Shown: piece by piece, positions 2,749 to 63,287 of the stretch | Layout of the letters: each line of letters begins with the position of its first letter | How positions within the stretch are numbered: position 1 is the stretch's first letter | NCBI GenBank assembly: GCA_031082125.1 | Contig: JAVHLM010000017.1 | Location: forward strand, 62,001-126,000 | DNA length: 64,000 bases | Direction: 5' to 3' | Origin: Candidatus Eremiobacterota bacterium | GTDB taxonomy: Bacteria; Vulcanimicrobiota; CADAWZ01; Ess09-12 | The notes under the pieces: model-generated | The model's database searches: none | Told to the model about the DNA's origin: nothing | Seen by the model: the letters and a program-made list of their open reading frames with translations, nothing else | Position numbers and translations under genes: made by a program

Positions 2749-4194
2749 GTGGAGGTTATGGAAGAGCGAGTCGTGATATGTGCGGAAAAATCGCAGGCAC
2801 TGAGCAAAAAAGTCACTTCACTTCTGAAAAAGCATGGGTTCCATGTGGAAACGGCGCAGGATGGACCTGAAGTGCTTCATAAGGCACTGTCCCTCGCTCC
2901 CGACCTCGTGGTGGTGGGAGAATCACTTCCCCAGATGAATGGATATGATCTCTGCACTTTTCTGGGCCATGACCCTGCCACCCGCGATCTGCCGGTAGTG
3001 CTCCTCTCCTCGCGGGAAGCCCCCCCCTCGCCGGTGGCTGGCGGCTCCTTACAGGTGATCTCAAGCTCCCGCATGGATGAGCTGGGCAAGCTGCTGAAGA
3101 GCCTCGCAAGAAGGAAGAAGAAAAAAACCGAAATGGCGCTGTCGGACACTACTCCCCACCTGTTGAAACATTCTCTTTCCCTCGTCTCGAGCCTTTCCCA
3201 GCAGCAGAGAACCTTTTCCCGGCTGAGGGACATCGCGCTGACCTCACCGGCGCTGGATCAGGCTCTTGTGAAAGGATTCCAGGTAGTCTCCGAGGCTCTT
3301 GATATTGATGCGGGCCTCTTGATATTCCCTTACAACGGGAAGAACATCATGCTGCTGCGATTTCCCAAGCCCGCCAGCGAAGACTATGTGAACCGTCTGA
3401 AGATGACCATCTTTGACAGCCTGGCCAAGAGAAATTTCAGCCGCGAGAGCGCCGATTTCACTGAAAAAACGATTATCACTGAAGGGGAGCACCAGCTCAC
3501 CGGCAAGGATATCCACACCTTCTGGAACGAACCGGTGACTATCGAGGGGAAGCAGAAGGGTTTCGTGGGCCTCGCGGTCCATGGGACGAAAGCAAAGACA
3601 GCGCTCGATGAGAGGAGCGGCTTCGCGAAAGCCCTCATGGAGGAGCTCTATTATCTCATTGAGAACGCCTACGTGAGGGAGGAATGCGCCAAGCTCACCA
3701 CTACCGATGCGCTCACCGGTGTGTTAAACCGTCACAGGATTATCGAAGTGCTCAAGAAGGAGCACGTGAGGGCAAAGCGCTATTTCCTCGATCTTTCCCT
3801 CATTCTCGTTGACATCGACAATTTCAAGACAGTGAATGACTTTTACGGATATCAGGTAGGCGATGTAATCCTCAAAGACCTCTCAAAGGCTTTTATTGAA
3901 ACCATGCGGAGCATCGATGAAGTGGGGCGCTATGGAGGCGAGGAGTTCCTTATCATTCTCCCCGAGACAAATCTCAAGGAGGGCGGCATAGCCGCCAACA
4001 GGATAAAGAACAGGGTCACGGACCATGTGTTCCCGGGAATTGCGAAGGACATCAAGGTATCTCTCAGCATGGGCATCACCACCTACCTGAGAGACATTGA
4101 CATCAGTGTTGATGACATCCTGAGAAGGGCTGATCAATCGCTCGGTGAAGCAAAAAAACGAGGAAAGAACTGCCTCTACGTAATGAGCAAATAG
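2749..4194 (+). CDS. Diguanylate cyclase with degenerate receiver domain
   Basis: Predicted to make cyclic di-GMP from two GTP. Residues about 5-120 have a response-regulator receiver fold, but the usual phosphoacceptor aspartate is replaced by glycine (PDLVVVGESLP where PDLVxxD is expected), so phosphorylation control is unlikely. A middle region (about 160-310) looks like a sensory GAF-type domain. The C-terminal GGDEF domain (about 315-480) has an intact GGEEF active site and an RSID inhibitory site five residues before it, implying an active, product-inhibited enzyme. A GTG at 2749 and an ATG at 2758 are both possible starts. The ATG has GAGGTG six bases ahead and is slightly preferred; the longer form is given here. 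Confidence 0.9.
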   Translation: MEVMEERVVICAEKSQALSKKVTSLLKKHGFHVETAQDGPEVLHKALSLAPDLVVVGESLPQMNGYDLCTFLGHDPATRDLPVVLLSSREAPPSPVAGGSLQVISSSRMDELGKLLKSLARRKKKKTEMALSDTTPHLLKHSLSLVSSLSQQQRTFSRLRDIALTSPALDQALVKGFQVVSEALDIDAGLLIFPYNGKNIMLLRFPKPASEDYVNRLKMTIFDSLAKRNFSRESADFTEKTIITEGEHQLTGKDIHTFWNEPVTIEGKQKGFVGLAVHGTKAKTALDERSGFAKALMEELYYLIENAYVREECAKLTTTDALTGVLNRHRIIEVLKKEHVRAKRYFLDLSLILVDIDNFKTVNDFYGYQVGDVILKDLSKAFIETMRSIDEVGRYGGEEFLIILPETNLKEGGIAANRIKNRVTDHVFPGIAKDIKVSLSMGITTYLRDIDISVDDILRRADQSLGEAKKRGKNCLYVMSK

Positions 4195-4295
4195 GCCCCC
4201 GCAGAAGGGGAGGAATATGGCTCATGCGTGGTGAATTTGTGGATCGCTCATAAGAACAAGGGTAACTTTGACTGATTCGCGAGGAGGTAAAGGAT

Positions 4296-5987
4296 ATGGG
4301 TCGAATATGGACGTGCACACTTGCGGGGCTCCTTGTGCTCGCAGTGCTCCTGGCAGGTGGGATTCCGCTCTATGCCCAGAGCCAGACTGACAGGGATGCG
4401 GTAAAACAGAACATCGAGGCTCTGAGAAGCACGAGTAACGTGACAAGGCAGACCGCGGCTCTCAATCTTGGAAGAGTCGGGCAGGGAGATGTCACTGCCG
4501 TTTCCGCGCTCATCAATGCAGCAAGCGACACTGACTGGGATGTGAGAATAAACGTGGCATGGTCCCTTGGGCAGCTTAAGGATTTTCATGCGAGAGGAAC
4601 CCTCCTCTCCCTTCTGAGAGACAAGGTGCCTGAAGTCCGGATGAACGCCGCAACAGCACTGGGCAGCCTTGGCGACGTGACGGCAGGCAACGACCTTATT
4701 GCCGCCCTCAATGACCAGTATGCCATCGTGAGAAAGGCTGCTGCTGCTGCCCTCGGTCAGCTCAAGTACAGCGCCGCAGGACCTGCGCTTGCAGCGGCCC
4801 TCAAGGATCAGGATGCCGACGTGAGAAACAACGCTGCCATTGCCATCAGGGACATGGGCTTTTCCACTCCTTCAGGAACCTACACGGAGGGACTCAAGGA
4901 CAGCGACAGCAGGGTGCGCTCCAATGTAGCCGAGGGAATGGGCACCTCTGGAAACAAGACAGACACGCCATTCCTCATTGCCTCCCTCAACGATCCCAGC
5001 CCCTCGGTGAGAAAAAGCGTGGCCCTCTCACTGGGAACCCTCGGCGACCCGGCAGCCATAAAACCCCTCGTGGGGCGCCTCGGTGACGACAACGAGATGG
5101 TGCGCCAGGCAGCAGCTGAGGCACTTGGGAAAATCGGTCCGGCGGCAATCCCCTCCCTTGCAGCGGTGATAAAGACAGGAAACCAGGTTGTGCGGGACGG
5201 TGCCATAACAGCCCTGGCAAAGATCGGCAAGCCTGCAGTGCCTACTCTGCTCGAGCTTCTCGCTGCGGAAAAAGCTGTCAAGATAAAGGCCGTCTGGGCC
5301 CTTGGCGAGATAAAGGATACCACAGTCATCCCTAACCTCATCGCGCTCTTCAAGGATGCTGACCAGGAGGTGCAGGACAGCGCCGTTACCGCCGTCGGCA
5401 AGATGGGTGCCGCAGCGGTCAAGGCGCTCCAGGAAGCACTCACTGACGCCGATTCGCCCGTGAAAATCAATGTGGCAAAGGCCCTGGGCCTCATTGCCGA
5501 TCCTGAAACAATCACCACCCTTTTGGATCTCCTCAAGGATCCTGATGAAAAAGTAGTGCAGGCCGTTTCCGAGTCCCTGGGCAAAATGGGCGAAAAGGCC
5601 ATGAAGCCCCTCATGGAATGCCTCGCATCAGGCGATGAGCTCCAGCGCGTGGGGGCCATCAACGCCCTCGCAAAGATGGGCAAGCCGGCGGCCGACGTCC
5701 TCATCAAGTCCCTCTCCGATCCCAACCCCCAGGTGCGCTCAAGCGCAGCCCTCGGGCTGGGCCAGATGGCAGAGAAATCTTCTGTGACGCCCCTTATGAA
5801 TGCCCTTGAAAACGACAAGGAGCCGAGCGTCAAGGTTTCGTGCGCCTGGGCCCTTGGCCAGGTAGGCGATGGCTCCCTCGTGGGCTCCATGACCACCATA
5901 AAGATAAGGGCCGCCGCCAAAGGGGAAAAGGAGCTCGTCACGGCGGTGGAAAAGGCCATTGCCAAGCTGGGAGGGCCTTTAAAATAG
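4296..5987 (+). CDS. Exported HEAT-repeat protein
   Basis: A 563-residue protein with an N-terminal signal peptide (about residues 1-28, ending LYAQSQ) and then essentially nothing but PBS-lyase-type HEAT repeats of about 31 residues, with recurring D..VR..AA.ALG..G units. Such solenoids mediate protein-protein contacts and have no enzymatic activity of their own. The export signal puts it in the periplasm or at the surface. AGGAGG lies eight bases before the ATG. It follows the diguanylate cyclase by 100 bases and is closed by a strong terminator. The partner is not predictable. The high GC3 of the repeat leaves a long antisense reading frame that I do not regard as a gene. Confidence 0.88.
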   Translation: MGRIWTCTLAGLLVLAVLLAGGIPLYAQSQTDRDAVKQNIEALRSTSNVTRQTAALNLGRVGQGDVTAVSALINAASDTDWDVRINVAWSLGQLKDFHARGTLLSLLRDKVPEVRMNAATALGSLGDVTAGNDLIAALNDQYAIVRKAAAAALGQLKYSAAGPALAAALKDQDADVRNNAAIAIRDMGFSTPSGTYTEGLKDSDSRVRSNVAEGMGTSGNKTDTPFLIASLNDPSPSVRKSVALSLGTLGDPAAIKPLVGRLGDDNEMVRQAAAEALGKIGPAAIPSLAAVIKTGNQVVRDGAITALAKIGKPAVPTLLELLAAEKAVKIKAVWALGEIKDTTVIPNLIALFKDADQEVQDSAVTAVGKMGAAAVKALQEALTDADSPVKINVAKALGLIADPETITTLLDLLKDPDEKVVQAVSESLGKMGEKAMKPLMECLASGDELQRVGAINALAKMGKPAADVLIKSLSDPNPQVRSSAALGLGQMAEKSSVTPLMNALENDKEPSVKVSCAWALGQVGDGSLVGSMTTIKIRAAAKGEKELVTAVEKAIAKLGGPLK

Positions 5988-27962: not shown

Positions 27963-30200
27963 TCACCGCTTTCTTCCGAGAAGAGGAAGCCACAGGAACA
28001 TCCCCAGGAACGCCATGAGAGCCATCAACCTGCAGGTCTCCTCCACTCCCATGAGAGGAATGAAGAGGGTGCCGCACAAAAACGCTCCACAGGCCGCCCC
28101 CAGGTTGTCAATGGTGTTCACAAGCCCGGCGGCCTGGGGGACAGAAGCCCCTCCCCTCAGCGTCATGAAGCCCACAAGAGGGAAGGCCATACCGTTTAAC
28201 ACTCCCATGGAAACAACGAGGCAGAAAAAGAGCGCCTGGGAGGAGAGAAGAGTCCCTGCATGAAGGAAAAGCGGCCCAAGCCCCCTCAGGATCGAGGGAA
28301 GGGCCGCGGCGAAAAGGATGAGCGCCGACTGAAGCACCCAGAAAAAGAGGGGGGCCCTGTCTTTCAAGGCGACCCTGGAAAAAGCCGCCCCCAGGGCCAT
28401 GCCCCCCATGAAGGCTGCCACCACAAGGCCCACCATCTGGTAAAGATATCCATAGAGGTTCTGGTAGGAGAAGAGCAGTACAATCTCCATGCCCATGGCC
28501 GAGAAGCCGAAGACCGCCAGGGAGGCAAGGTAATTGAAGCGCTGCTGGGAGGAAGCGTCAACTTTTCTTTTCACCACGAAGAGGATCCTGGCAAGGATGA
28601 GGAGGGCAAGCACAAGGGCAAAGGTGGAGAGGGAGAAGCGGGAGCATAGCGCCAGAAACCCCGCCATACGTGACCCTGATATTCTGTCCCATATGACAAG
28701 GCTGTAAAAATAGGTGACGGGCCTGAAGTCGGTATTGCAGAGCGATGGCGCCTCCTCCAGCATGGCTCTTGCCTCCCTCACCCTCAGGGGAGGAAAAAAA
28801 TCATCAAACATGAGGGGCGAGAACCGCTCCTCGGGAACATGACGGCCTGCGAAGCGTTTTTTGAGCACGGCGGGATCAGATGTCACCACCCCGGGGGCGT
28901 CACTTGCAAAGAAATACATCGTATCCTGGGGACTTACCTCGACTGAGGGGAACACTTCCCTGAGGGTGCGGTACACTGAGGCATTGTAAAGGCTGTAGAG
29001 AGAGTCCCTGTACTGAGGCGACGAAGAAAGTGAGAGGGCTAAAACCCCTCTCTTGTCCATTATTCTATTGAGGGAAAGGAAAAACTCTCTTGTGTAGAAC
29101 CTGTTGAGCATGGCGCTCGAAGGATCGGGGAGCATTAGAATGACCACATCATAGAGGTTCTTCGCCCTGTTCACGTAATATCTCCCATCGCCGCTTATGA
29201 CGGTCACTTTCCTGTCCTCAAAACCCGAGCGCTCGTAAGGGTCCAGATAAGGCCCCACCATGGCGGAAAGGGCGGAATCGAGAGGCACGTAGTGGAGGGA
29301 CTTTACTCCATGAGCCAGGCATTCGGCAAGAAAGCCTCCCGATGTCTCGCCAATAACGAGGAGCGAAGAAGGCTTCTCGTGCTCGGCAAGGATCATGTGA
29401 GCGGTAAGCCTCACCCCGTAGGGATCAGGAAAAGAAAAGCAATACTGGCCGTTCCCATAGACGCTGTATTGGTCTTCCTGCACGGTAAGGGCCAGGTTCT
29501 GGTATCTCGAATCAATCGAGCTGACCAGGGGCAGGCCTGAGATGAGGGACTCCCAGCGGAGCTTTATGAGGCTCATGTTGAGGGCTTCCACGCGGGGAAA
29601 AAAGAGAAAGACACCGGCCAGCACGGCCCCCATGAGGCCGAGGGAAAGAGGGCCCCTCTTCACCGACGCGGCAAGAAGAAGGAGCATCGCGATACAAAGA
29701 AGGGCCCAGAGAATATGGAGTGATGAGTAACGCTCCACAAGGGCGAAGCTGAAAAGGACCCCCCCCAGAAGGCTTCCAAGAGATTCAAGCGTATACAGGG
29801 AGGCTATGGCTGAGCCATCCTTCCTGTGGCGCGCCATCAGATGGCAGCCCAGGGGGAAAGAAAAGCCTACCACGATGCCATAAGGGGCAATCACAAGGAA
29901 AGCAAGCAGGCACATGGCACCAAAGCTGATATAGAGTCCCTGCGGCACGTGGAGAAGCAGGCGGGCGCTCCTTATAAGGGGCACCTCTCCAAGGGGAATA
30001 AGGGCAAAAAGAAGAAGGCAGAGGGGGAAAAAGCCCTCAAGGTTCCTTTTCCGGGACATGGCCGTGAAAATGAGAGCCCCGAGGGCTATGGAGAAGAGCC
30101 AGACTCCCATTATCATGCCCATGCAGAGCTCGTTCCCGTAAAACACCACAAGGAACTCCCGCACCATCACGGCCTGGATTATCATCGAGGCGCATCCCAT
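27963..30200 (-). CDS. Polytopic membrane protein with spermidine-synthase-like domain
   Basis: A 745-residue protein: about eight N-terminal membrane segments (to about residue 215), a soluble methyltransferase/aminopropyltransferase-like domain (about 225-480), then further membrane segments to the end. The soluble domain keeps VIGETSGGFLAECL (SAM-type loop), VPLDSALS, ISGDGRYYV and LPDPSSAMLNRFYTREFF. In known spermidine synthases the last strand reads ILDLPDP; here it is ILMLPDP, so classical activity is uncertain. The first ATG (30200) has no ribosome-binding site and truncates membrane segment 1. Homology in the preceding 13 codons and GGAGGG five bases before an ATC at 30239 suggest the real start is there. 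It is divergent from the DUF362/AmmeMemoRadiSam operon. Confidence 0.8.
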   Translation of the reverse strand: MGCASMIIQAVMVREFLVVFYGNELCMGMIMGVWLFSIALGALIFTAMSRKRNLEGFFPLCLLLFALIPLGEVPLIRSARLLLHVPQGLYISFGAMCLLAFLVIAPYGIVVGFSFPLGCHLMARHRKDGSAIASLYTLESLGSLLGGVLFSFALVERYSSLHILWALLCIAMLLLLAASVKRGPLSLGLMGAVLAGVFLFFPRVEALNMSLIKLRWESLISGLPLVSSIDSRYQNLALTVQEDQYSVYGNGQYCFSFPDPYGVRLTAHMILAEHEKPSSLLVIGETSGGFLAECLAHGVKSLHYVPLDSALSAMVGPYLDPYERSGFEDRKVTVISGDGRYYVNRAKNLYDVVILMLPDPSSAMLNRFYTREFFLSLNRIMDKRGVLALSLSSSPQYRDSLYSLYNASVYRTLREVFPSVEVSPQDTMYFFASDAPGVVTSDPAVLKKRFAGRHVPEERFSPLMFDDFFPPLRVREARAMLEEAPSLCNTDFRPVTYFYSLVIWDRISGSRMAGFLALCSRFSLSTFALVLALLILARILFVVKRKVDASSQQRFNYLASLAVFGFSAMGMEIVLLFSYQNLYGYLYQMVGLVVAAFMGGMALGAAFSRVALKDRAPLFFWVLQSALILFAAALPSILRGLGPLFLHAGTLLSSQALFFCLVVSMGVLNGMAFPLVGFMTLRGGASVPQAAGLVNTIDNLGAACGAFLCGTLFIPLMGVEETCRLMALMAFLGMFLWLPLLGRKR

Positions 30201-30366: not shown

Positions 30367-30395
30367 TTGACAGCACCCCGGTTCACCCCTATAAT
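30367..30395 (+). promoter_or_regulatory. Consensus sigma-70 promoter for DUF362-AmrS-AmrBA operon
   Basis: TTGACA (30367-30372), a 17-base spacer, TATAAT (30390-30395): a perfect consensus pair 30 bases before the DUF362 start codon. This predicts strong, probably constitutive, vegetative expression unless repressed. Confidence 0.85.
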
Positions 30396-30425: not shown

Positions 30426-31502
30426 ATGGATGACACGCCGAGCCGCCGGATGTTCCTGGGACAGCTTACAGGGCTTGTCCTCGGCTTCCCGCTTATGGCA
30501 TCGCTTACCTGCAGCCACAAGGTGGCAGGAACAGGAAGTGCTGGACCCGCAGGGGAGCACCCGTCGCCCGTACCGGCCGAGATAAGGAAGAGGCTTGTCG
30601 AGGTCCGCTCCGGCAAGGTCCTCTCCGCGGAGAATACTGTCAACAGCAAAGTGCTCGAACAGATGCTCACCTGCGCCATGGAACGCCTCACCGCCTGCCA
30701 TGGTGACGCCGCGTGGCAGAAGCTTTTCTCACCTTCCGACATGGTGGCCCTCAAGGTGAACTGCCTGGCGGGGAAACGCCTCTCCACCCACCGGGAGCTT
30801 GTGAATGCCATCGTTTCCGGCCTCACGAGAGCGGGCGTTCAGAGCTCGAGGATTATCATTTATGACCGCACCTCAGAGGAACTCAGGCAGGCAGGCTTTT
30901 CCCTCAGCAGGTCAGGCGGCGCGGCCCGCTGCTTTGGCACTGATGAGCCGGGAGTCGGCTACGATGAGGAGCCTACCATCTCAGGCGAGGTGGCAAGCCG
31001 CTTCTCCACCATCATCAGCAGGGAATGCACCGCCCTCATCAATGTGCCGGTCCTGAAGGACCATGACCTCTGCGGCCTCTCGGCGGCCCTCAAGAACCAT
31101 CTGGGTTCCATAGACAATCCCAACAAGTACCACCCCAACGGCGGGGACCCTTACATAGCCGATATCAATGCCTCGCCGCTCCTCCTCAGCAAGAGCAGGC
31201 TCATCATCTGCGATGCCCTTGAAGCCCTTTATGACGGCGGTCCCGCTTACAATCCCGCTGGAACCTGGTCCTACGGCGGCATCCTTGCAGGCTGTGATCC
31301 CGTGGCCCTCGACACGAGAGCCCTCTCCATCATAGAGGCAAAGCGCAGGGAGATGAAACTGCCGACACTCTCCGATGAAAAGCGCTTCCCTCACTATATC
31401 GCCCGGGCCGCTGACAGCGACCACCGCGTGGGTGAGGGGGACTTTTCAAAGGTGGAGCACATGCTCATTGACCCTCTCGAGTGTGAAGGAAAGGGGGACT
31501 GA
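30426..31502 (+). CDS. DUF362-domain protein with Tat-type signal
   Basis: A 358-residue protein. The N-terminus SRRMFLGQLTGLVLGF is a twin-arginine signal, predicting export of a folded, perhaps cofactor-bearing protein. The rest matches the DUF362 pattern: DMVALKVNCLAG, IIIYDRT, LINVPVLKDHDLCGLSAALKNHLGSIDNP, and ILAGCDPVALDTRALSIIE near the C-terminus. DUF362 proteins often accompany iron-sulfur proteins, but their activity is not established. GGGAGG lies five bases before the ATG, and a consensus promoter lies 30 bases upstream. AmrS starts seven bases after its stop codon, so the two are tightly coupled. Confidence 0.85.
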   Translation: MDDTPSRRMFLGQLTGLVLGFPLMASLTCSHKVAGTGSAGPAGEHPSPVPAEIRKRLVEVRSGKVLSAENTVNSKVLEQMLTCAMERLTACHGDAAWQKLFSPSDMVALKVNCLAGKRLSTHRELVNAIVSGLTRAGVQSSRIIIYDRTSEELRQAGFSLSRSGGAARCFGTDEPGVGYDEEPTISGEVASRFSTIISRECTALINVPVLKDHDLCGLSAALKNHLGSIDNPNKYHPNGGDPYIADINASPLLLSKSRLIICDALEALYDGGPAYNPAGTWSYGGILAGCDPVALDTRALSIIEAKRREMKLPTLSDEKRFPHYIARAADSDHRVGEGDFSKVEHMLIDPLECEGKGD

Positions 31503-31509
31503 AACGGCC

Positions 31510-32628
31510 ATGGTGAGCCGACGGCAGTTCCTGAAATCCCTGTGTCTTTTCTCCTGCACCGCTCCTTTTGTTTCGGGGCTTCTGGGCAGCACCGGGAGTG
31601 ATCCCCTCGCCCCCTTCACAAGAAAAGCCCGCTATTATGAAAAACTGCCGGGAAGGAGGGTCCGGTGCACCCTCTGCCCGAGGGAATGCCGGGTGGGAAA
31701 CAGGGAGCGCGGTTACTGCGGGGTAAGGGAAAACCGGGACGGCGAATATTATACCCTTGTCTATGGGAATCCCTGCTCCCTCGGTATCGATCCCATTGAA
31801 AAAAAGCCTTTCTTCCACTTCCTGCCCGGCACGGGAGCCTTCTCCCTCTCGACGGCAGGGTGCAATATGAACTGCCGCTACTGCCAGAACTGGGAGATTT
31901 CCCAGTCACGGCCTGAAAACGTGCGCTGGCAGTCTCTCTTCCCGAAAGATGCCGTAAAAGAAGCGCAAAGACGCCAGTGCCGCTCGATCTTGGGGACCTA
32001 CGCAGAGCCCACGGTATTCTTTGAATATATGCTTGCCATTGCCCGCGAAGCCCGGCAGCAGGGCCTCAAATCAGCAATAGTCTCGGCGGGCTTCACCAGG
32101 AAAGAACCCATGGAGGAGTTCCTGAAAGCACTCGATGCCGTCAAGATAGATCTGAAATCCTTCGATGACGAGTTCTACCGGAAAATCTGCGTGGGGGAGA
32201 GGGCGCCGGTCCTCGAGACCCTTAAAACCATAAGAAAGTCAGAAGTGTGGCTCGAGATAGTCTATCTTGTGGTGCCTACCCTCAACGACTCGATGGACAA
32301 AATAAAGGAAATGTGCCAGTGGATAAAGAAAGAACTGGGAAGCGACGTGCCCCTTCATTTTACGAGGTTTCACCCGATATACAAGCTCAAGAATCTGCCG
32401 TCAACTCCCGTAGCGACACTTCAGAAGGCCCGTAACGCGGCCATGGCGGAGGGCCTGCACTATGTCTATACGGGGAATGTTCCCGGCGATCCAGGCGAAA
32501 ACACATACTGCCACCATTGCAGAAAGCCTGTAATAGAGCGTGCCGGCTTCATGATAAAGAAAATACACCTTATCAAGGGAAAATGCCCTTATTGTAAAGA
32601 GCGGATTCCCGGTGTATGGGAGGGATGA
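31510..32628 (+). CDS. amrS: AmmeMemoRadiSam system radical SAM enzyme, with Tat signal
   Basis: A 372-residue protein of the AmrS family (pyruvate formate-lyase-activase-like). It has an N-terminal Cys cluster (CTLCPRECRVGNRERGYCG), the radical SAM motif CNMNCRYCQNW, VKIDLKSFDDEFYRKIC, and the C-terminal CHHC ... CPYC zinc-type motif with IPGVW. The system's chemistry is unknown. The N-terminus MVSRRQFLKS fits the twin-arginine consensus exactly and is followed by a hydrophobic core, so the enzyme appears exported or membrane-anchored, which is unusual for a radical SAM protein. The ATG at 31510 was chosen because it puts the Tat motif at the N-terminus; GGGGG lies 11 bases upstream. It sits between DUF362 and AmrBA. 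Confidence 0.9.
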   Translation: MVSRRQFLKSLCLFSCTAPFVSGLLGSTGSDPLAPFTRKARYYEKLPGRRVRCTLCPRECRVGNRERGYCGVRENRDGEYYTLVYGNPCSLGIDPIEKKPFFHFLPGTGAFSLSTAGCNMNCRYCQNWEISQSRPENVRWQSLFPKDAVKEAQRRQCRSILGTYAEPTVFFEYMLAIAREARQQGLKSAIVSAGFTRKEPMEEFLKALDAVKIDLKSFDDEFYRKICVGERAPVLETLKTIRKSEVWLEIVYLVVPTLNDSMDKIKEMCQWIKKELGSDVPLHFTRFHPIYKLKNLPSTPVATLQKARNAAMAEGLHYVYTGNVPGDPGENTYCHHCRKPVIERAGFMIKKIHLIKGKCPYCKERIPGVWEG

Positions 32629-32633
32629 GATCA

Positions 32634-34187
32634 ATGCGCCTTAGTGCCTGGAGTGCCTTTCTTGTCATCATGATAAGCCTGTGCTTTCTCTCCCCCCACC
32701 AGGGATGCGCTTCCCAGAAAGCTGCGGAGAAGAGAGAAGAAGCGGCGTCCTCGCCAAGGGAAGAGGAGCCTCTCAAGAAGCCCAATGTGGCAGGGCAGTT
32801 TTACCGCGACGACAGGGAAGCGCTCACGAAGGAACTGAAGGGGTATCTGGAAAAGGCCGGGGCAGCCCCTCCTGGCACCGAAGAGGTCTGCGGTATCGTC
32901 TCACCCCATGCCGGCACCATCTACTCGGGACCTGTGGCAGCTTATGGATACCGCCTTGTCAAGGGGCTTCCCTCCAGGACCGTTATCATTATCGCGCCAA
33001 CTCACCATTTCGACTTCGAAGGCTTTGCCGTCTATGACCGCGGTGCCTTCAGGACCCCCCTGGGTGACGTGCCTGTTGACAGGGCCATGGCACAGAGGCT
33101 CATGGAAAAGTGTTCCCTGGTCAAGAAGCAGTATGAGCCTTTTGAAAGGGAGCACAGCCTCGAGCTCCAGATCCCTTTCCTGCAGGTGGCCCTTGAGGAT
33201 TTCAAGATCGTGCCCCTCATCGCCGGCAGGAACGACCTTGAAGGGTGCAGAAAGCTTGCCCAGGCAATGGCCTCACTCTTCGGGCCCTCAGAAACGCGGC
33301 CGGTGCTGCTTGTGGCAAGCTCTGATCTCTCCCACTACCACCCTTACAAGGAGGCGCAGTCCATAGACGGGAAAACCATCAAAGCCATAGAGAAAATGGA
33401 TGCTCCGGCACTCCTCGGGGAAGGCGCCGGGAACTGCGAACTCTGCGGCGCGGTCCCCGTGGCCACCGTGATTCTTGCCATGAAAGAGCTCGGGTGCAGG
33501 CCCGTCCTTCTCAAATATGCCAATTCGGGTGACACTGCAGGCGATAAAAGCCGCGTCGTAGGCTATGCTTCCGTGGCTTTCTCAAGAAAACCAGAGACAG
33601 GGAAGGTGAAAGGTATGAAAGATGAATTCCTCACCGGGGAAGACAAGAAAGAGCTCCTTGTGATGGCAAGGAAGACCCTTGAAGAGTATCTCAAGACAGG
33701 CAAAAAGCCTGAGTTCTTCAAGGACAGCCCCATCCCCGAAAACCTCAAGATGGAAACAGGCATGTTTGTGACCCTTCACAAGCATGGCGCCCTCAGGGGA
33801 TGCATCGGGCACCTTACAGGAGGCGACGCACTCTATAAGTCCGTGGTGGAACTCGCAATCTCATCGGCGACGAGAGACACGCGCTTTCCCCAGGTGAAAT
33901 ATGACGAGCTCAAGGATATCCACATAGAAATCTCGGTAATGTCGCCCCTCAGGCGTGCCGAGAGCGCCGACGAGATCGTGATGGGGAAGCATGGCGTCAT
34001 TGTGAGAAAAGGCTTCCACAGCGGGGTCTTTCTTCCCCAGGTGGCTACCGAGACCGGGTGGACCAAGGAGGAGTTCATGAGCCAGCTCTGCTGGCAGAAA
34101 GCGGGACTTTCTCCCGATGCCTGGAAGGAAAAGGATACGGAACTCCTCATTTTCACCGCTGACGTGTTCGGAGAACCGGAAAAGTGA
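32634..34187 (+). CDS. AmmeMemoRadiSam system protein B / protein A fusion, exported
   Basis: A 517-residue fusion. Residues 1-30 are a signal peptide, possibly a lipoprotein signal (Cys in HQGCAS). Residues about 50-325 are a Memo-like (AmrB) domain: SPHAGTIYSGPVAAYGY, IIAPTHHFDF, EREHSLELQIPFLQ, ASSDLSHYHPY with the conserved His residues. Residues about 335-515 are an AMMECR1 (AmrA) domain: HGALRGCIGHL, SATRDTRFPQV and SGVFLPQVATETGW. The ATG at 32634 has GGGAGGG nine bases upstream and overlaps nothing; an ATG at 32625 overlaps the amrS stop codon. With AmrS and DUF362 it completes a three-gene operon that makes all three AmmeMemoRadiSam components. Confidence 0.9.
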   Translation: MRLSAWSAFLVIMISLCFLSPHQGCASQKAAEKREEAASSPREEEPLKKPNVAGQFYRDDREALTKELKGYLEKAGAAPPGTEEVCGIVSPHAGTIYSGPVAAYGYRLVKGLPSRTVIIIAPTHHFDFEGFAVYDRGAFRTPLGDVPVDRAMAQRLMEKCSLVKKQYEPFEREHSLELQIPFLQVALEDFKIVPLIAGRNDLEGCRKLAQAMASLFGPSETRPVLLVASSDLSHYHPYKEAQSIDGKTIKAIEKMDAPALLGEGAGNCELCGAVPVATVILAMKELGCRPVLLKYANSGDTAGDKSRVVGYASVAFSRKPETGKVKGMKDEFLTGEDKKELLVMARKTLEEYLKTGKKPEFFKDSPIPENLKMETGMFVTLHKHGALRGCIGHLTGGDALYKSVVELAISSATRDTRFPQVKYDELKDIHIEISVMSPLRRAESADEIVMGKHGVIVRKGFHSGVFLPQVATETGWTKEEFMSQLCWQKAGLSPDAWKEKDTELLIFTADVFGEPEK

Positions 34188-34278
34188 CCATCGCCGGGGC
34201 CCTGCGGTGCAAAGAAGGAATATAGGGCAGCATACCGAATGAATAGGACAGGTTGAGTTGACGAAAGGAGGGCTCCTA

Positions 34279-34776
34279 TTGCTCTGCCTGAAATGCGGAC
34301 ACAACAACGCCCAGGGAGCTAATTACTGCACCCGCTGCAACGCGGCGCTCCCCAAGATGACCCAGACTGACACGGCGCCGCCCACCAAGGTGAACGAGCG
34401 TTACATGCAGCTCAAGGAAGCCGGCGAGAAAGCCAAGAGCGGCGAGTGGACAATTGAGCAGTACGGGAAGTTTCTCCAGGATATCCAGGCCATCCTTGCT
34501 CAGAAGGAGCAGGAAATCCGAGAGATAGAGATCCCCGAGGAAGCAATCGAGGAATTCGCCGAGGAGCTGGAAGTGGGCTTTAACGGGATTGAGCTTTACA
34601 ACCAGGGCATCGCCAACATGCTCCTTTTCCTTGAGGACAAGAACGCCGACCACATTGACTACGGCCTTGAGCTCGTCCATGAAGGAAACGAGAAGATAAA
34701 CGAGGCAATGCGCATCAACAGGGAAAACAGGCGGAAGCTCGAGGAGATGTATATCGACAACTCGACTCTCATGTAA
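34279..34776 (+). CDS. Zinc-ribbon helical-module protein (paralogue of 25596)
   Basis: A 165-residue protein. An N-terminal zinc ribbon (CLKCGHNNAQGANYCTRC) is followed by a helical domain with KSGEWTIEQYGKFLQDIQ, IPEEAIEEFAEELE, IANMLLFLEDKNADHIDYGL and NEKINEAMRINREN. It is clearly the same architecture as the protein at 25596. The start is a TTG at 34279 with AAAGGAGGG six bases upstream; an earlier in-frame TTG at 34258 lacks a ribosome-binding site, and this choice gives MLCLKCGH, parallel to MLCPGCGH in the paralogue. It follows amrBA by 91 bases and ends at a bidirectional terminator. Function unknown. Confidence 0.78.
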   Translation: MLCLKCGHNNAQGANYCTRCNAALPKMTQTDTAPPTKVNERYMQLKEAGEKAKSGEWTIEQYGKFLQDIQAILAQKEQEIREIEIPEEAIEEFAEELEVGFNGIELYNQGIANMLLFLEDKNADHIDYGLELVHEGNEKINEAMRINRENRRKLEEMYIDNSTLM

Positions 34777-34790
34777 GGTTTAAAGACAGG

Positions 34791-34826
34791 AAAAAAAAAG
34801 AGGCTTTGCAAAGCCTCTTTTTTTTT
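34791..34826. terminator. Bidirectional terminator
   Basis: Nine A, GAGGCTTTGCAAAGCCTC (self-complementary), nine T. It lies between the plus-strand zinc-ribbon gene (stop at 34776) and the minus-strand Pro-rich gene (stop at 34843) and can serve both. Confidence 0.92.
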
Positions 34827-34842
34827 CCCTGTTTTCCCTCCG

Positions 34843-37981: not shown

Positions 37982-39124
37982 TCAGCTGCCGTTTTCACAG
38001 ATATCCACCACGAACTGCGCAATATTTTTTGTAACCCCGGGGCTTCCCAGGTCGAGCCTTACTTCCAGAAGGGCCTCGAGCATCATGCGGCGACCCGGGG
38101 TCTCATCAATGAGGGGAAGGCACTCGGCGGCTATTCTCCGGGGATTCACCTCAAGCTGCACAAGCTCCGGTACCACCCTTTTCTGAAGGATCAGGTTGGG
38201 AAGGGAGATATGGGGAACCTTGATCAGGAGCTTCCCGATGCACCAGTCAGGCCAGGCCAGCTTGTAAAGGACCACCATGGGAACCCCCAGGATGGCCGCC
38301 TCAAGACTTGCGCTCCCCGACGCCATCAGTATGCACCTGGAAAGCTTCATCACTTCGTGGGCATTGCCCTCAGCAAGGGTGAGGCCTTCCATGTGAGGTG
38401 CCGTGAGGCCCTCTATCAGCGGGCGGTAAAGCGGAAGGGCCATGGGAAGAATAAAATGGAGATTCTTCCTTTCCTTCATGAGCAGCTCCTTGGTCTTCAC
38501 CAGCACAGGCAGCAGCGAGACTATCTCCTGGTGCCTGCTACCCGGCATGAGGGCCACATAGTCTTTCCCGGGGGGAAGGCCAAGCCTCGCGACCAGCTCG
38601 TCACGCTCCCCCTTCACCTCGAGCATGTCCACGAGAGGGTGGCCGAAGTAATTTACAGGAATGCCTGCCCGGCGGTAGGTCTTCACTGTATAGGTAAAGG
38701 CGGGAACAAGGTAATCAGAGACCCTGGCAATCTTCTTTACCCTTTCCACGCTGGGAAACCATGCCGAAGGGGGGAAAAAATAAAGGGTTTTCACTCCATG
38801 GTCATGAGCGAACCGGGCAATCCTCATGTTGATGCTGGGTGTATCAATCAATATGAGAAGGTCGGGCCTCTCCTTGAGGATAATCGCCTTGACTCTCTTC
38901 ACCAGGCCGAGAAGGAAAGGAATCTTCCCCAGGGCGTGCCAGGGACCGATGATGCCCCAAGACGTGCTCTCCTCAAAAATCATGACGCCCTTACTTTTCA
39001 TCCTGGCGCCGCCGATACCGAAAAACTTATACGATGGCTTCAAGTGCCTGATGGTTGCCGCGAGATGAGCACCCTGCAGATCGCCTGAAGCTTCTCCTGC
39101 GAGAACCATTATCTTTTTCGACAT
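37982..39124 (-). CDS. lpxB: Lipid-A-disaccharide synthase
   Basis: Joins UDP-2,3-diacylglucosamine and 2,3-diacylglucosamine 1-phosphate into the lipid A disaccharide at the inner face of the membrane. 380 residues. It shows VLAGEASGDLQGAHLA, FFGIGGARMKSKG, LILIDTPSINMRIA, YFFPPSAWFPSVERVKKIA, LMPGSRHQEI and ASGSASLEAAILGVPMVVLYK, the standard LpxB series. The ATG at 39124 has GGAG nine bases upstream; a TTG six codons earlier is less likely. It follows lpxA by 50 bases. Confidence 0.96.
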   Translation of the reverse strand: MSKKIMVLAGEASGDLQGAHLAATIRHLKPSYKFFGIGGARMKSKGVMIFEESTSWGIIGPWHALGKIPFLLGLVKRVKAIILKERPDLLILIDTPSINMRIARFAHDHGVKTLYFFPPSAWFPSVERVKKIARVSDYLVPAFTYTVKTYRRAGIPVNYFGHPLVDMLEVKGERDELVARLGLPPGKDYVALMPGSRHQEIVSLLPVLVKTKELLMKERKNLHFILPMALPLYRPLIEGLTAPHMEGLTLAEGNAHEVMKLSRCILMASGSASLEAAILGVPMVVLYKLAWPDWCIGKLLIKVPHISLPNLILQKRVVPELVQLEVNPRRIAAECLPLIDETPGRRMMLEALLEVRLDLGSPGVTKNIAQFVVDICENGS

Positions 39125-39174
39125 TCCGGTGAGCTCCGACAAAGTGGTGGAAAGCCTTGATAGATTGGGCTTTT

Positions 39175-60206: not shown

Positions 60207-61238
60207 CTATTCTGTCGCCATGAGTCGGTAAATGCAGTAGGGATTGCTGTATCTGTTCCCTGTCACATAGTAGGCAAAGGCTGAGCAGCCGCACTTGCAC
60301 TGCTCAAGATACTTGCAGCTTCTGCAGAATCCCTCCACCTTGGAATAATCAAACTGCCTGTTGTAGCAGAAGCTGTTCCTATTGTACCAGATTTCTTTCA
60401 GGGAGGTCTCATTGATGTTCCCTTCGACAAAGGCCTTTCCTTCGATATATTCAGGCAGCTGGCACAGGCATCCTTTCACCGTTCCGTCGGCCTCAATCGC
60501 CACCAGGGTGATGCCGGCCTTGCAGCCTTTCCATCTATTCCCGCGCATTGTCTCTTCCATGGCCGTGTAATATCCTATGTTATCAGAGACGTGAAGATCG
60601 ATAATTTTATCTTTTCTCACCTCAATGAGAAACTTCACAAGATAACGGAGATCGCGGGGGCTCAGCACCTGCTCGGCCTGCTCCTTCATTCTCCCCGAGG
60701 CAAAGGTGAGCTGCACCTGCCAGGAGGGAATTTCATGGTCTATCACGAGTCTGTAGAGATCTTCCAGCTGATGAAAATTGAATTTCGAGAGCGAGGTGAT
60801 CGCACATCCATGCACGTCATGCTTTTCAAGCTCTTTGAAGGCTTCCATGACATCGCGGTACGCATTTCTGCTCTGCCGTATATGGTTATGGACCTCCTCG
60901 AGCCCGTCAAGGCTTATGGAAAAGCTCTCAAAATACTGGGCGATATCCTTTATCTGATCCTTGACAAAGGTCCCGTTTGAGACAATACCGCTTCTTATCC
61001 CATAGTCCTTTATCCGGGCCGCAAGCTGTGGCCAGTCCTTCCTGAGAAGCGGCTCACCGCCGGAAAAGGTGATTTCTTTCATCCCTATATCTCTGCATTC
61101 ATCAATAATGGAGAGCATCTTCTCCGTTCCCATTTCAGCCGGCCGGCCGGTTGCCGCAGAGGAGGCACAATGAAGGCACCGCATGTTGCACTTCATCGTG
61201 ATCTCGAGGATACACTTGACGGGAGGCTTCACTTCCAT
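60207..61238 (-). CDS. Radical SAM/SPASM-domain protein
   Basis: A 343-residue enzyme. The cluster motif is CNMRCLHC near residue 18, followed by ITFSGGEPLLRKDW and ISLDGLEEVHNHIRQS, the usual radical SAM core. The C-terminal SPASM region has GCKAGITLVAIEADGTVKGC and CRSCKYLEQCKCGCS, enough Cys for two auxiliary iron-sulfur clusters. SPASM enzymes mostly modify ribosomal peptides or act as sulfatase-type maturases. It is the third radical SAM gene in the run, clearly different from the tandem pair upstream. The ribosome-binding site is weak (AGAGCAGAG). Confidence 0.88.
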   Translation of the reverse strand: MEVKPPVKCILEITMKCNMRCLHCASSAATGRPAEMGTEKMLSIIDECRDIGMKEITFSGGEPLLRKDWPQLAARIKDYGIRSGIVSNGTFVKDQIKDIAQYFESFSISLDGLEEVHNHIRQSRNAYRDVMEAFKELEKHDVHGCAITSLSKFNFHQLEDLYRLVIDHEIPSWQVQLTFASGRMKEQAEQVLSPRDLRYLVKFLIEVRKDKIIDLHVSDNIGYYTAMEETMRGNRWKGCKAGITLVAIEADGTVKGCLCQLPEYIEGKAFVEGNINETSLKEIWYNRNSFCYNRQFDYSKVEGFCRSCKYLEQCKCGCSAFAYYVTGNRYSNPYCIYRLMATE

Positions 61239-61268
61239 TTCAGCTCTGCTCTTTTCTGATGGTGATTC

Positions 61269-62243
61269 TTACACTTCCATGCACTCGTACTTATTGAAAT
61301 GACTTACACAGTAGAGGCATGGATCATGTTCGGAAGAGGTGAGATTCCCCTCCATCACCCAGTCTATCTTGCTGCGACAGAATTTGTTAATCTTGTTTGA
61401 AAGCTCCTTCAGCGCGAACTGCAGCGGCGTCGTATTCAGATCGTCAACGATGTCGGAGTCTGCTCCCGCTGCCCCGCGGTAATTCGAGAGATCAGGGCAG
61501 AATCTTAAATGTCCGTGACAGTCGATGCCTATCATCGACATCGCCTGGGGGCGGCATACGGATAACGGATAGCGTGTTTTGGTCCCCGCCAATGTCACTG
61601 CCATCCGTTTATGTGCTTCCCTTATCGAGTCTATCTGCTTTTCAACCTCATCTATCTGCGCCGGCGAGAGCATGTACTGCGCATTCTCCAGTGTCGGCTT
61701 CATTATCGTGTAATTCAACTCGAGAGCACCGGCCTCATCGGCAAGCTTCGCAATCTGCTCCAGCTCATTGATATTGAACGTGCCGACCACTACCTGCACG
61801 CTGAAAGGGATGCCATGCATCCGCGCAAGCCTGAAGGCCTCTTTTACCTTTGCGAAGGAGCCCTCGCCCCGTATCGCATCATTGGTCTCAGCAGTGGCGC
61901 CATCTATGCTGAATGCAAAGCCCCTGAATCTTTGCGAAGCGCCCTGTACAATGAGCTTATAAGCTTCCTTGAAATTCTGTCCGTTTGAGGTAATGGTATA
62001 ATCAATATCATGCCGCTCCATCACGGCAATCAGGCCTTCCCAGTCGCTGTGAAGCGTCGGTTCACCGCCCGTGATGGCCACAATTCTTGTCTTGTACGGC
62101 TCTGTCTGCTCAAGAATATGGTCCAGCAGGCGGAGGTCAATATCGACAGGGCCTGTCCCCCCCATATCGTTGATATTTTTATTGCAGTGCCTGCAGTTCA
62201 GGTTGCATCTATTGGTCGCCTCAACAACGATTATCTCGGGCAT
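61269..62243 (-). CDS. Radical SAM protein, second copy of tandem pair
   Basis: A 324-residue protein very similar to its upstream neighbour across the whole length: MPEIIVVEATNRCNLNCRHC (cluster motif), AITGGEPTLHSDWEGLIAV, FSIDGATAETNDAIRGEG, then CRPQAMSMIGIDCHGHLRFCPDLSNYRGA and a C-terminal CLYCVSHFNKYECMEV. The C-terminal Cys set suggests a SPASM/twitch-type auxiliary cluster. AAGGAG precedes the ATG. The leader, including ATACATTATGAAGGAGA, is also shared with the first copy, showing that duplication included the ribosome-binding site. Substrate unknown. Confidence 0.88.
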   Translation of the reverse strand: MPEIIVVEATNRCNLNCRHCNKNINDMGGTGPVDIDLRLLDHILEQTEPYKTRIVAITGGEPTLHSDWEGLIAVMERHDIDYTITSNGQNFKEAYKLIVQGASQRFRGFAFSIDGATAETNDAIRGEGSFAKVKEAFRLARMHGIPFSVQVVVGTFNINELEQIAKLADEAGALELNYTIMKPTLENAQYMLSPAQIDEVEKQIDSIREAHKRMAVTLAGTKTRYPLSVCRPQAMSMIGIDCHGHLRFCPDLSNYRGAAGADSDIVDDLNTTPLQFALKELSNKINKFCRSKIDWVMEGNLTSSEHDPCLYCVSHFNKYECMEV

Positions 62244-62303
62244 TTTTCTCTCTCCTTCATAATGTATTTATGCTCAGAGGGCATCACCATAATGGAGGTG
62301 ATT

Positions 62304-63287
62304 TTACATCTCCATGCAGTCGTTTTTATTGAAATGCCTGACACAGTACAGGCATGGATTGGCATCGGTTGACGAGATTGTGCCCTCTGTCACCCAGTCA
62401 ATCTTGTTATGGCGGAATCTGTTGATCCTGTTCGAAAGATCCTTCAGCGCCGCCGAGAGCGGCTTCATATTCAGATTGGCGATGATGTCCGTGTCATCAT
62501 GAATCGCGCCGCGGTAATTCGTGAGATCGACGCATAACCTCAAGAGCCCGTTGTAGTCAATGCTTATCATCGACATCGACAGGGGGCGGCACACGAAAAA
62601 TGGATCGGGCGATTTATACCCCGTCGTCATGCCGATTTTCACGCGGGCATTCTTGTGGGCTTCCTTTATGGCGACCACCTGCTCTTCCACCTCATCGGAC
62701 TCCACGAGAGAGAGCAGGAGCTCCACATTATCCGGTGACGGCCTCATCAATATGTAATTCAGCTCGTCAGCACCAAGCTCTTCTGCAAGCGCTGCAAGCT
62801 GAGCCAGTTCATGCTTGTTGTGCCTGCCGACCACTGCCTGCATCCCGAAGGGTATGCCCTTCTCTTTGGCAATCCTCATTGCCCCTACGACATAGTTAAA
62901 AGCTCCCTCGCCCCTTACCGCGTCATTTACTTGAGCGGTAGCGCCCTCTATGCTGAACGTGATTCCCTTGAATTTTTTTGAGGCATTTTTTACCAGTACC
63001 TTGTGAGCCTCCTCGAAGTTTATGCCATTTGTGGTAAAGACATAATCAACATCATGTTTTTCCAGCACGGCAATCAGGCCTTCCCAGTCGCTGTGAAGCG
63101 TCGGCTCTCCGCCGGTGAGGGACACGATCCTTGTTCTGAACGGCTCAGCCTGCGTGAGTATCTTGTCCAGCAGGTGGAGATCTATATCGACAATATCAGC
63201 GCCCCCCATGGTGTTAATCTTTTTCATGCAGTGCACACAATCCAGATTGCATTTATTGGTCGCCTCAATGACAATTATCTCGGGCAT
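62304..63287 (-). CDS. Radical SAM protein, first copy of tandem pair
   Basis: A 327-residue protein with MPEIIVIEATNKCNLDCVHC (cluster motif), SLTGGEPTLHSDWEGLIAV, FSIEGATAQVNDAVRGEG, CRPLSMSMISIDYNGLLRLCVDLTNYRGA and CLYCVRHFNKNDCMEM. It differs from the second copy mainly in the central specificity region and in the segment before the first C-terminal Cys. AAGGAG lies ten bases before the ATG. It is first in the five-gene minus-strand run and is preceded by about 390 bases with no firm gene. Substrate unknown. Confidence 0.88.
   Translation of the reverse strand: MPEIIVIEATNKCNLDCVHCMKKINTMGGADIVDIDLHLLDKILTQAEPFRTRIVSLTGGEPTLHSDWEGLIAVLEKHDVDYVFTTNGINFEEAHKVLVKNASKKFKGITFSIEGATAQVNDAVRGEGAFNYVVGAMRIAKEKGIPFGMQAVVGRHNKHELAQLAALAEELGADELNYILMRPSPDNVELLLSLVESDEVEEQVVAIKEAHKNARVKIGMTTGYKSPDPFFVCRPLSMSMISIDYNGLLRLCVDLTNYRGAIHDDTDIIANLNMKPLSAALKDLSNRINRFRHNKIDWVTEGTISSTDANPCLYCVRHFNKNDCMEM

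Follow-up and report, generated by a model that had tools for sequence, protein, structure and literature searches.

AMMECR1 and Memo have human homologues, and we know of no established function for either protein or for their bacterial radical S-adenosylmethionine (SAM) partner. The three make up the AmmeMemoRadiSam system, represented by the models TIGR04335 (AmrA), TIGR04336 (AmrB) and TIGR04337 (AmrS), and the literature searched contained no paper with this system as the subject of its title or abstract. Here we describe a version of it from a Candidatus Eremiobacterota bacterium, encoded at positions 30426-34187 of a 64,000-nucleotide stretch of DNA (contig JAVHLM010000017.1, positions 62,001 to 126,000; hereafter the window). 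An operon encodes a DUF362 protein, AmrS and an AmrB-AmrA fusion (AmrB-A), and a gene for a protein with 14 transmembrane (TM) helices reads divergently from it. We think it likely, from comparative sequence evidence, that the operon and its divergent neighbour constitute an extracytoplasmic version of AmmeMemoRadiSam, whose paralogous components serve specifically on the outer side of the cytoplasmic membrane.

The window system is a member of the AmmeMemoRadiSam family by every criterion tested, but it is exported, duplicated and provided with partners of its own. All three components score above the NCBIfam cut-offs (AmrS, 398.8 bits against a cut-off of 220; AmrB, 271.4 bits; AmrA, 172.5 bits), and the radical SAM cysteines and the Memo metal-site residues are kept. 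It differs from the described system in the export signal on every component, in the fusion of AmrB to AmrA, and in its conserved partners, a DUF362 protein and the 14-TM protein, which contains a spermidine-synthase-like (SpdS-like) domain; the same genomes also encode a cytosolic version, which lacks these features. The metal ligands of human MEMO1, the eukaryotic Memo, are H49, H81 and C244 (PMC11081632); they match H98, H130 and C277 of AmrB-A by motif context, not by alignment, and these three residues are invariant in 54/54 homologues. The window protein differs from MEMO1 in being bacterial, exported and fused to AMMECR1. No description of the exported form was found in the literature searched; a mention is possible in Burroughs et al. 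2019 (JBC, Memo superfamily), which reportedly discusses Memo gene contexts. The features of the locus are as follows.

27963-30200, minus strand: gene for the 14-TM protein with a central SpdS-like domain, divergent from the operon (family, topology, neighbour statistics)
28629-29537, minus strand: SpdS-like domain, residues 222-524 of the 14-TM protein (positive-inside count; aminopropyltransferase fold)
30367-30395, plus strand: predicted sigma-70-type promoter TTGACA-N17-TATAAT, an exact consensus ahead of the operon
30426-31502, plus strand: DUF362 protein gene (PF04015, E 7e-21; AlphaFold2 pLDDT 94; LarA fold, Z 15.6)
30441-30461, plus strand: SRRMFLG twin-arginine motif, DUF362 residues 6-12 (translation)
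31510-32628, plus strand: AmrS gene, AmmeMemoRadiSam radical SAM enzyme with a predicted Tat signal (TIGR04337, 399 bits; start-codon analysis)
31516-31536, plus strand: SRRQFLK twin-arginine motif, AmrS residues 3-9 (translation; conserved lineage-wide)
31861-31884, plus strand: radical SAM [4Fe-4S] motif CNMNCRYC in AmrS (C118, C122, C125; invariant in 90/90 exported and 44/44 cytosolic proteins)
32616-34187, plus strand, likely start 32634: AmrB-AmrA (Memo-AMMECR1) fusion gene with a Sec-type signal (TIGR04336, TIGR04335)

Export signals in the window and across genomes

The initial annotation had reported twin-arginine motifs on AmrS and DUF362 and a signal peptide on the fused AmrB-AmrA protein, and all three stand. 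AmrS begins MVSRRQFLK (longer form, MVSRRQFLKSLCLFSCTAPFVSGLLGS), in which residues 3-9 are an exact SRRQFLK, the full S-R-R-x-F-L-K consensus of the twin-arginine translocation (Tat) pathway, and the hydrophobic stretch that follows reaches a best 15-residue Kyte-Doolittle (KD) value of 1.83. The DUF362 protein begins MDDTPSRRMFLG (longer form, MDDTPSRRMFLGQLTGLVLGFPLMASLT), with SRRMFLG at residues 6-12 and then a hydrophobic stretch with a best 15-residue KD value of 1.67. Both proteins have the features used as the criterion for a Tat substrate, an RR motif followed by an uncharged hydrophobic stretch. The N-terminal signal of AmrB-A is of the Sec type and lies inside every start option (32616 or 32634; best 15-residue KD value 2.38); the start is probably 32634, 9 nt after GGGAGGG, and from there the protein begins MRLSAWSAFLVIMISLCFLSPHQGC.

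The initial annotation had allowed that the true amrS start might lie downstream of the twin-arginine segment. After codons 1 and 2, the next ATG, GTG or TTG of the amrS frame is codon 62. A start at that position would cost the protein C53, C56 and C60, cysteines conserved in 134/134, 133/134 and 131/134 proteins, respectively, in an alignment of 134 AmrS, and the RR signal therefore belongs to the protein. A late start is ruled out on these grounds.

The same annotation had proposed surveying AmrS families for Tat signals. Our set comprised 140 distinct AmrS: 80 relatives from many phyla (Acidobacteriota, Aminicenantes, Zixibacteria, KSB1, Myxococcota, Desulfobacterota and others), paralogues from their own genomes, and relatives within the phylum of the window. 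An RRx(phi)(phi) motif (phi, hydrophobic) with a charge-free run upstream of the core is present in 76 of the 94 AmrS that have at least 40 upstream residues, whereas 200 shuffles of the upstream regions gave a mean of 0.42 and a maximum of 3 such signals, which rules out a chance motif. A few further homologues have KR or RK in place of RR, or a plain membrane segment; the remaining AmrS begin right at the core and were classed as cytosolic. The CxxxCxxC radical SAM motif is intact in both groups.

A tree of the AmrS core, with the signal region left out, requires 3 changes between the exported and cytosolic states, compared with 38 when labels are shuffled. One of the 3 (L153) is not a loss of the signal, since a membrane segment lies just upstream in another frame and the record is frameshifted. 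Most exported AmrS are therefore old and stable paralogues that form essentially one lineage across many phyla. The survey and the tree together rule out a local oddity or a recent acquisition. Genomes with an exported AmrS usually also keep a separate cytosolic AmrS without the upstream extension, and the window genome has three AmrS: that of this operon, a second Tat-type copy and a cytosolic copy (L002 and L003, respectively). In an evenly drawn sample of the Acidobacteriota, about 32 of 105 AmrS are exported. TatC is encoded in the window's own genome (208 bits) and in 28/30 further genomes with an exported AmrS. One of the two genomes without TatC is that of an elusimicrobium (L073), whose AmrS has a non-RR membrane signal; these genomes are drafts, so the absence of TatC is weak evidence. 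At one locus (L182, genome G174, about 4043-5041), amrS is frameshifted between the membrane signal and the core, and the neighbouring AmrB-A has an N-terminal Tat-like segment ending KEARFYRTL, reminiscent of an AmrS N-terminus.

The AmrB-AmrA fusion, directly downstream of AmrS in the window, follows the same division. Where a fusion is linked to an exported AmrS, its signal is of the Sec type or resembles that of a lipoprotein, and in a separate genome-wide sample a signal was found on 17/19 AmrB-AmrA fusions and on 0/12 stand-alone AmrB (Fisher p 6e-7). The window genome itself encodes the exported fusion here and a stand-alone AmrB without a signal elsewhere. A natural fusion of the whole system was seen in a planctomycete (L083:4565-6868; also in L152 and L228), where AmrB, AmrA and AmrS form a single chain behind one N-terminal signal.

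Partners of the exported AmrS

For neighbour statistics we used loci with a known flank of 2 kb or more on each side, which left 63 exported and 26 cytosolic AmrS. The 14-TM protein is encoded near 39/63 exported AmrS and DUF362 near 38/63, as against 0/26 cytosolic AmrS for each (p ~1e-8); the co-occurrence of AmrS and DUF362 is one that the initial annotation had proposed to survey. Neither the divergent gene nor the two further AmrS copies of the genome had been mentioned there.

The 14-TM protein has 7 TM helices, the SpdS-like domain and 7 further TM helices, an arrangement with which the AlphaFold2 model (pLDDT 90) agrees. Counts of Lys and Arg, read by the positive-inside rule, assign the SpdS-like domain to the outside and the two termini to the inside in 46/46 homologues. 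The top matches of the domain in the Protein Data Bank (PDB) are all aminopropyltransferases (E 3e-12). Most relatives retain the SAM-type GGGxxG and ELDP motifs, which read GETSGG and PLDS in the window protein. The DxxDP motif, in contrast, lacks its catalytic Asp: the first Asp is replaced, giving NLP[DE]P in most relatives and MLPDP in the window. The missing Asp rules out a canonical spermidine synthase. The nearest described proteins, PRK03612 and the fused major facilitator superfamily (MFS)-spermidine synthases, likewise have an aminopropyltransferase fold between TM helices; the window protein scores below the curated cut-offs of both (156 vs 472 bits and 36 vs 40 bits) and differs from them in the replaced Asp and in the predicted outward position of the domain.

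The DUF362 protein matches PF04015 with 75.6 bits (gathering cut-off 24), and no relative of its sequence was found in the PDB. The AlphaFold2 model of the mature protein (pLDDT 94) matches the N-domain of the lactate racemase LarA in Foldseek (E 1e-6) and superposes on it in VIA over 205 residues at 3.2 A. By hhalign, the invariant H172 and K182 pair with the active-site His and the tethering Lys of LarA, although this alignment is weak (probability 42%, E 3e-4). This Lys tethers the nickel-pincer nucleotide (NPN) in LarA. The likeness to the LarA superfamily (PF09861, clan CL0471) thus consists of the N-domain fold and the His and Lys pairing, and DUF362 and LarA are placed in one Pfam clan (PMC11770544). 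DUF362 differs in having one domain only. Neither LarB nor LarC was found in the window genome (97.6% complete), and LarC was not found in 10 further genomes, several of which have the cluster. NPN use by DUF362, although compatible with fold and residues, is therefore unlikely here. As a ferredoxin-type electron donor DUF362 can be rejected, because the alignment has no conserved cysteines. The literature searched contained no paper linking DUF362 with the twin-arginine pathway.

Eight exported AmrS from the acidobacterial sample (L302, L306, L307, L311, L313, L314, L315 and L337) contain CxxCH and a later His in an extra segment between the Tat signal and the core; no cytosolic AmrS has CxxCH at this position. 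Their operons include AmrB-A and, in most cases, the 14-TM protein, and the order AmrS, AmrB-A, 14-TM is plain in 4 loci. Covalent attachment of haem c takes place outside the cytoplasmic membrane. The insert, if it binds haem, would therefore be independent proof of where AmrS is located, and a hint of how electrons are supplied.

Other neighbours recur as well. A DUF6599 protein is encoded near 17 exported AmrS loci (for example L014:4062-4994), mostly divergent from the DUF362 gene; it was never found near a cytosolic AmrS and is not present in the window locus. NapH-type or fused polyferredoxin membrane proteins, candidate electron donors, occur near exported AmrS at L054:4465-5343, L066:6653-8350 and L080:299-2083, and the L066 protein has an internal VSRRMVMTSLVGG segment. 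A universal electron donor beside the operon can be rejected, as such proteins are found near these few loci only.

Promoter, host and surrounding genes

The perfect consensus promoter claimed in the initial annotation is exact in sequence, although its activity is a prediction; it is the only TTGACA-N17-TATAAT match in the 64 kb of the window, and none occurs in 100 shuffles. Downstream, a zinc-ribbon gene (34258-34776) may be the final gene of the operon, followed by a terminator-like hairpin (34789-34828; 18 pairs, very strong). The minus strand between 37982 and 56783 holds an envelope cluster. LpxB (37982-39142) was identified by family search, whereas LpxA, LpxC, LpxD and the Skp-like, BamA-type and TamB-type proteins of this cluster were read by eye from translations. 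LpxB and the other envelope genes indicate that the host is diderm, with an outer membrane and a periplasm. Three consecutive radical SAM genes at 60207-63287 are SPASM-like in appearance, and the last two are near-duplicates.

Location of the system and its possible chemistry

The initial annotation had proposed that the whole system works outside the cytoplasm or at the membrane, with an export signal on every component. The comparative evidence strongly supports such a location, because there is one conserved lineage of exported AmrS, AmrB-A carries signals, TatC is present, the host is diderm and a membrane partner has an enzyme-like domain predicted to face outward. What is exported, however, is a paralogous version beside the cytosolic one, not the system as such, and although every component has a signal in the window, a Tat signal on DUF362 itself is found in only 20/48 homologous clusters. 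The signals and topology argue strongly that AmrS and DUF362 would be targeted by Tat and AmrB-AmrA by Sec, and that the SpdS-like domain of the 14-TM protein would lie outside.

Several observations weigh against an extracytoplasmic system. DUF362 lacks a signal in the other 28/48 clusters, one AmrS of the exported clade (L078) seems to have truly lost its signal, and no partner gene adjoins about 10 exported AmrS whose flanks are complete. The main AmrS survey and the neighbour statistics were sampled by similarity to the window protein. Any role of the SpdS-like domain without the usual catalytic Asp is a guess, and we know of no extracytoplasmic SAM pool or low-potential donor, although, as the initial annotation had pointed out, an exported radical SAM enzyme needs SAM and low-potential electrons.

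In the only serious rival explanation, AmrS is exported without repeated radical SAM turnover outside. Either it modifies a partner, for instance DUF362, before leaving the cytoplasm, and the two are then co-exported by hitch-hiking, or its role outside is confined to that of a metal or Fe-S protein. Both SAM and low-potential electrons are found in the cytoplasm, and the position of DUF362 directly upstream of AmrS, together with the clusters in which it has no signal of its own, fits a pair travelling through one Tat signal. With its separate Sec-type signal, however, AmrB-A would encounter AmrS only outside; the remaining clusters, including that of the window, encode a DUF362 with a Tat signal; many exported AmrS have no DUF362 neighbour; and all catalytic cysteines are retained in exported AmrS. 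We consider this explanation unlikely. A weaker case can be made that the N-terminal segments are membrane anchors only, holding AmrS and its partners on the cytoplasmic side. Anchors may stay uncleaved, a clear AxA cleavage site is missing from the window AmrS, and the homologues with KR or RK and the plain membrane segment of L073 would be expected of anchors. Cleaved or not, however, a hydrophobic helix preceded by a positive n-region predicts an outside position for the domain behind it; an anchor would not need strict conservation of RR, many homologues have AxA-type sites, and the AmrB-A signals, the topology of the SpdS-like domain and the CxxCH inserts all point outward. Anchoring alone is thus quite improbable. 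That the RR segment is an annotation artefact, the true AmrS start lying past it in an ordinary cytosolic system, is scarcely credible: the frame is open as far upstream as 31375, which means that a start must be chosen, but the next start lies inside the conserved cysteine cluster and the segment is conserved across many phyla.

If the system is extracytoplasmic, as we favour, AmrS would already hold its [4Fe-4S] cluster and have its two four-cysteine metal sites formed when it folds in the cytoplasm, and Tat, the route for cofactor-loaded proteins, would export it in the folded state. Sec carries unfolded chains; AmrB-A would leave by this pathway and meet AmrS outside, and because it would travel unfolded, AmrS and AmrB-A could act together only there. 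AmrS, AmrB-A, the membrane protein and DUF362 would then act on an envelope substrate. As a guess, the SpdS-like domain might bind SAM or a SAM derivative and help to supply AmrS, and electrons might come from membrane or periplasmic carriers. The fullest form of this proposal, radical SAM catalysis outside the membrane in an envelope-modifying complex, in which the outward domain of the 14-TM protein delivers or recycles SAM or products and membrane or c-type haem carriers provide the electrons, is possible but on balance doubtful.

A compartment-specific paralogue that has recurring partners and shares its cells with a cytosolic twin narrows the search for the substrate of the exported system to the cell envelope. 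Concrete leads are the membrane protein, with its predicted outward SpdS-like domain, and the AmrS variants that bear CxxCH. If AmrS works outside, SAM or an equivalent and a strong reductant must cross the membrane, which would be new biology.

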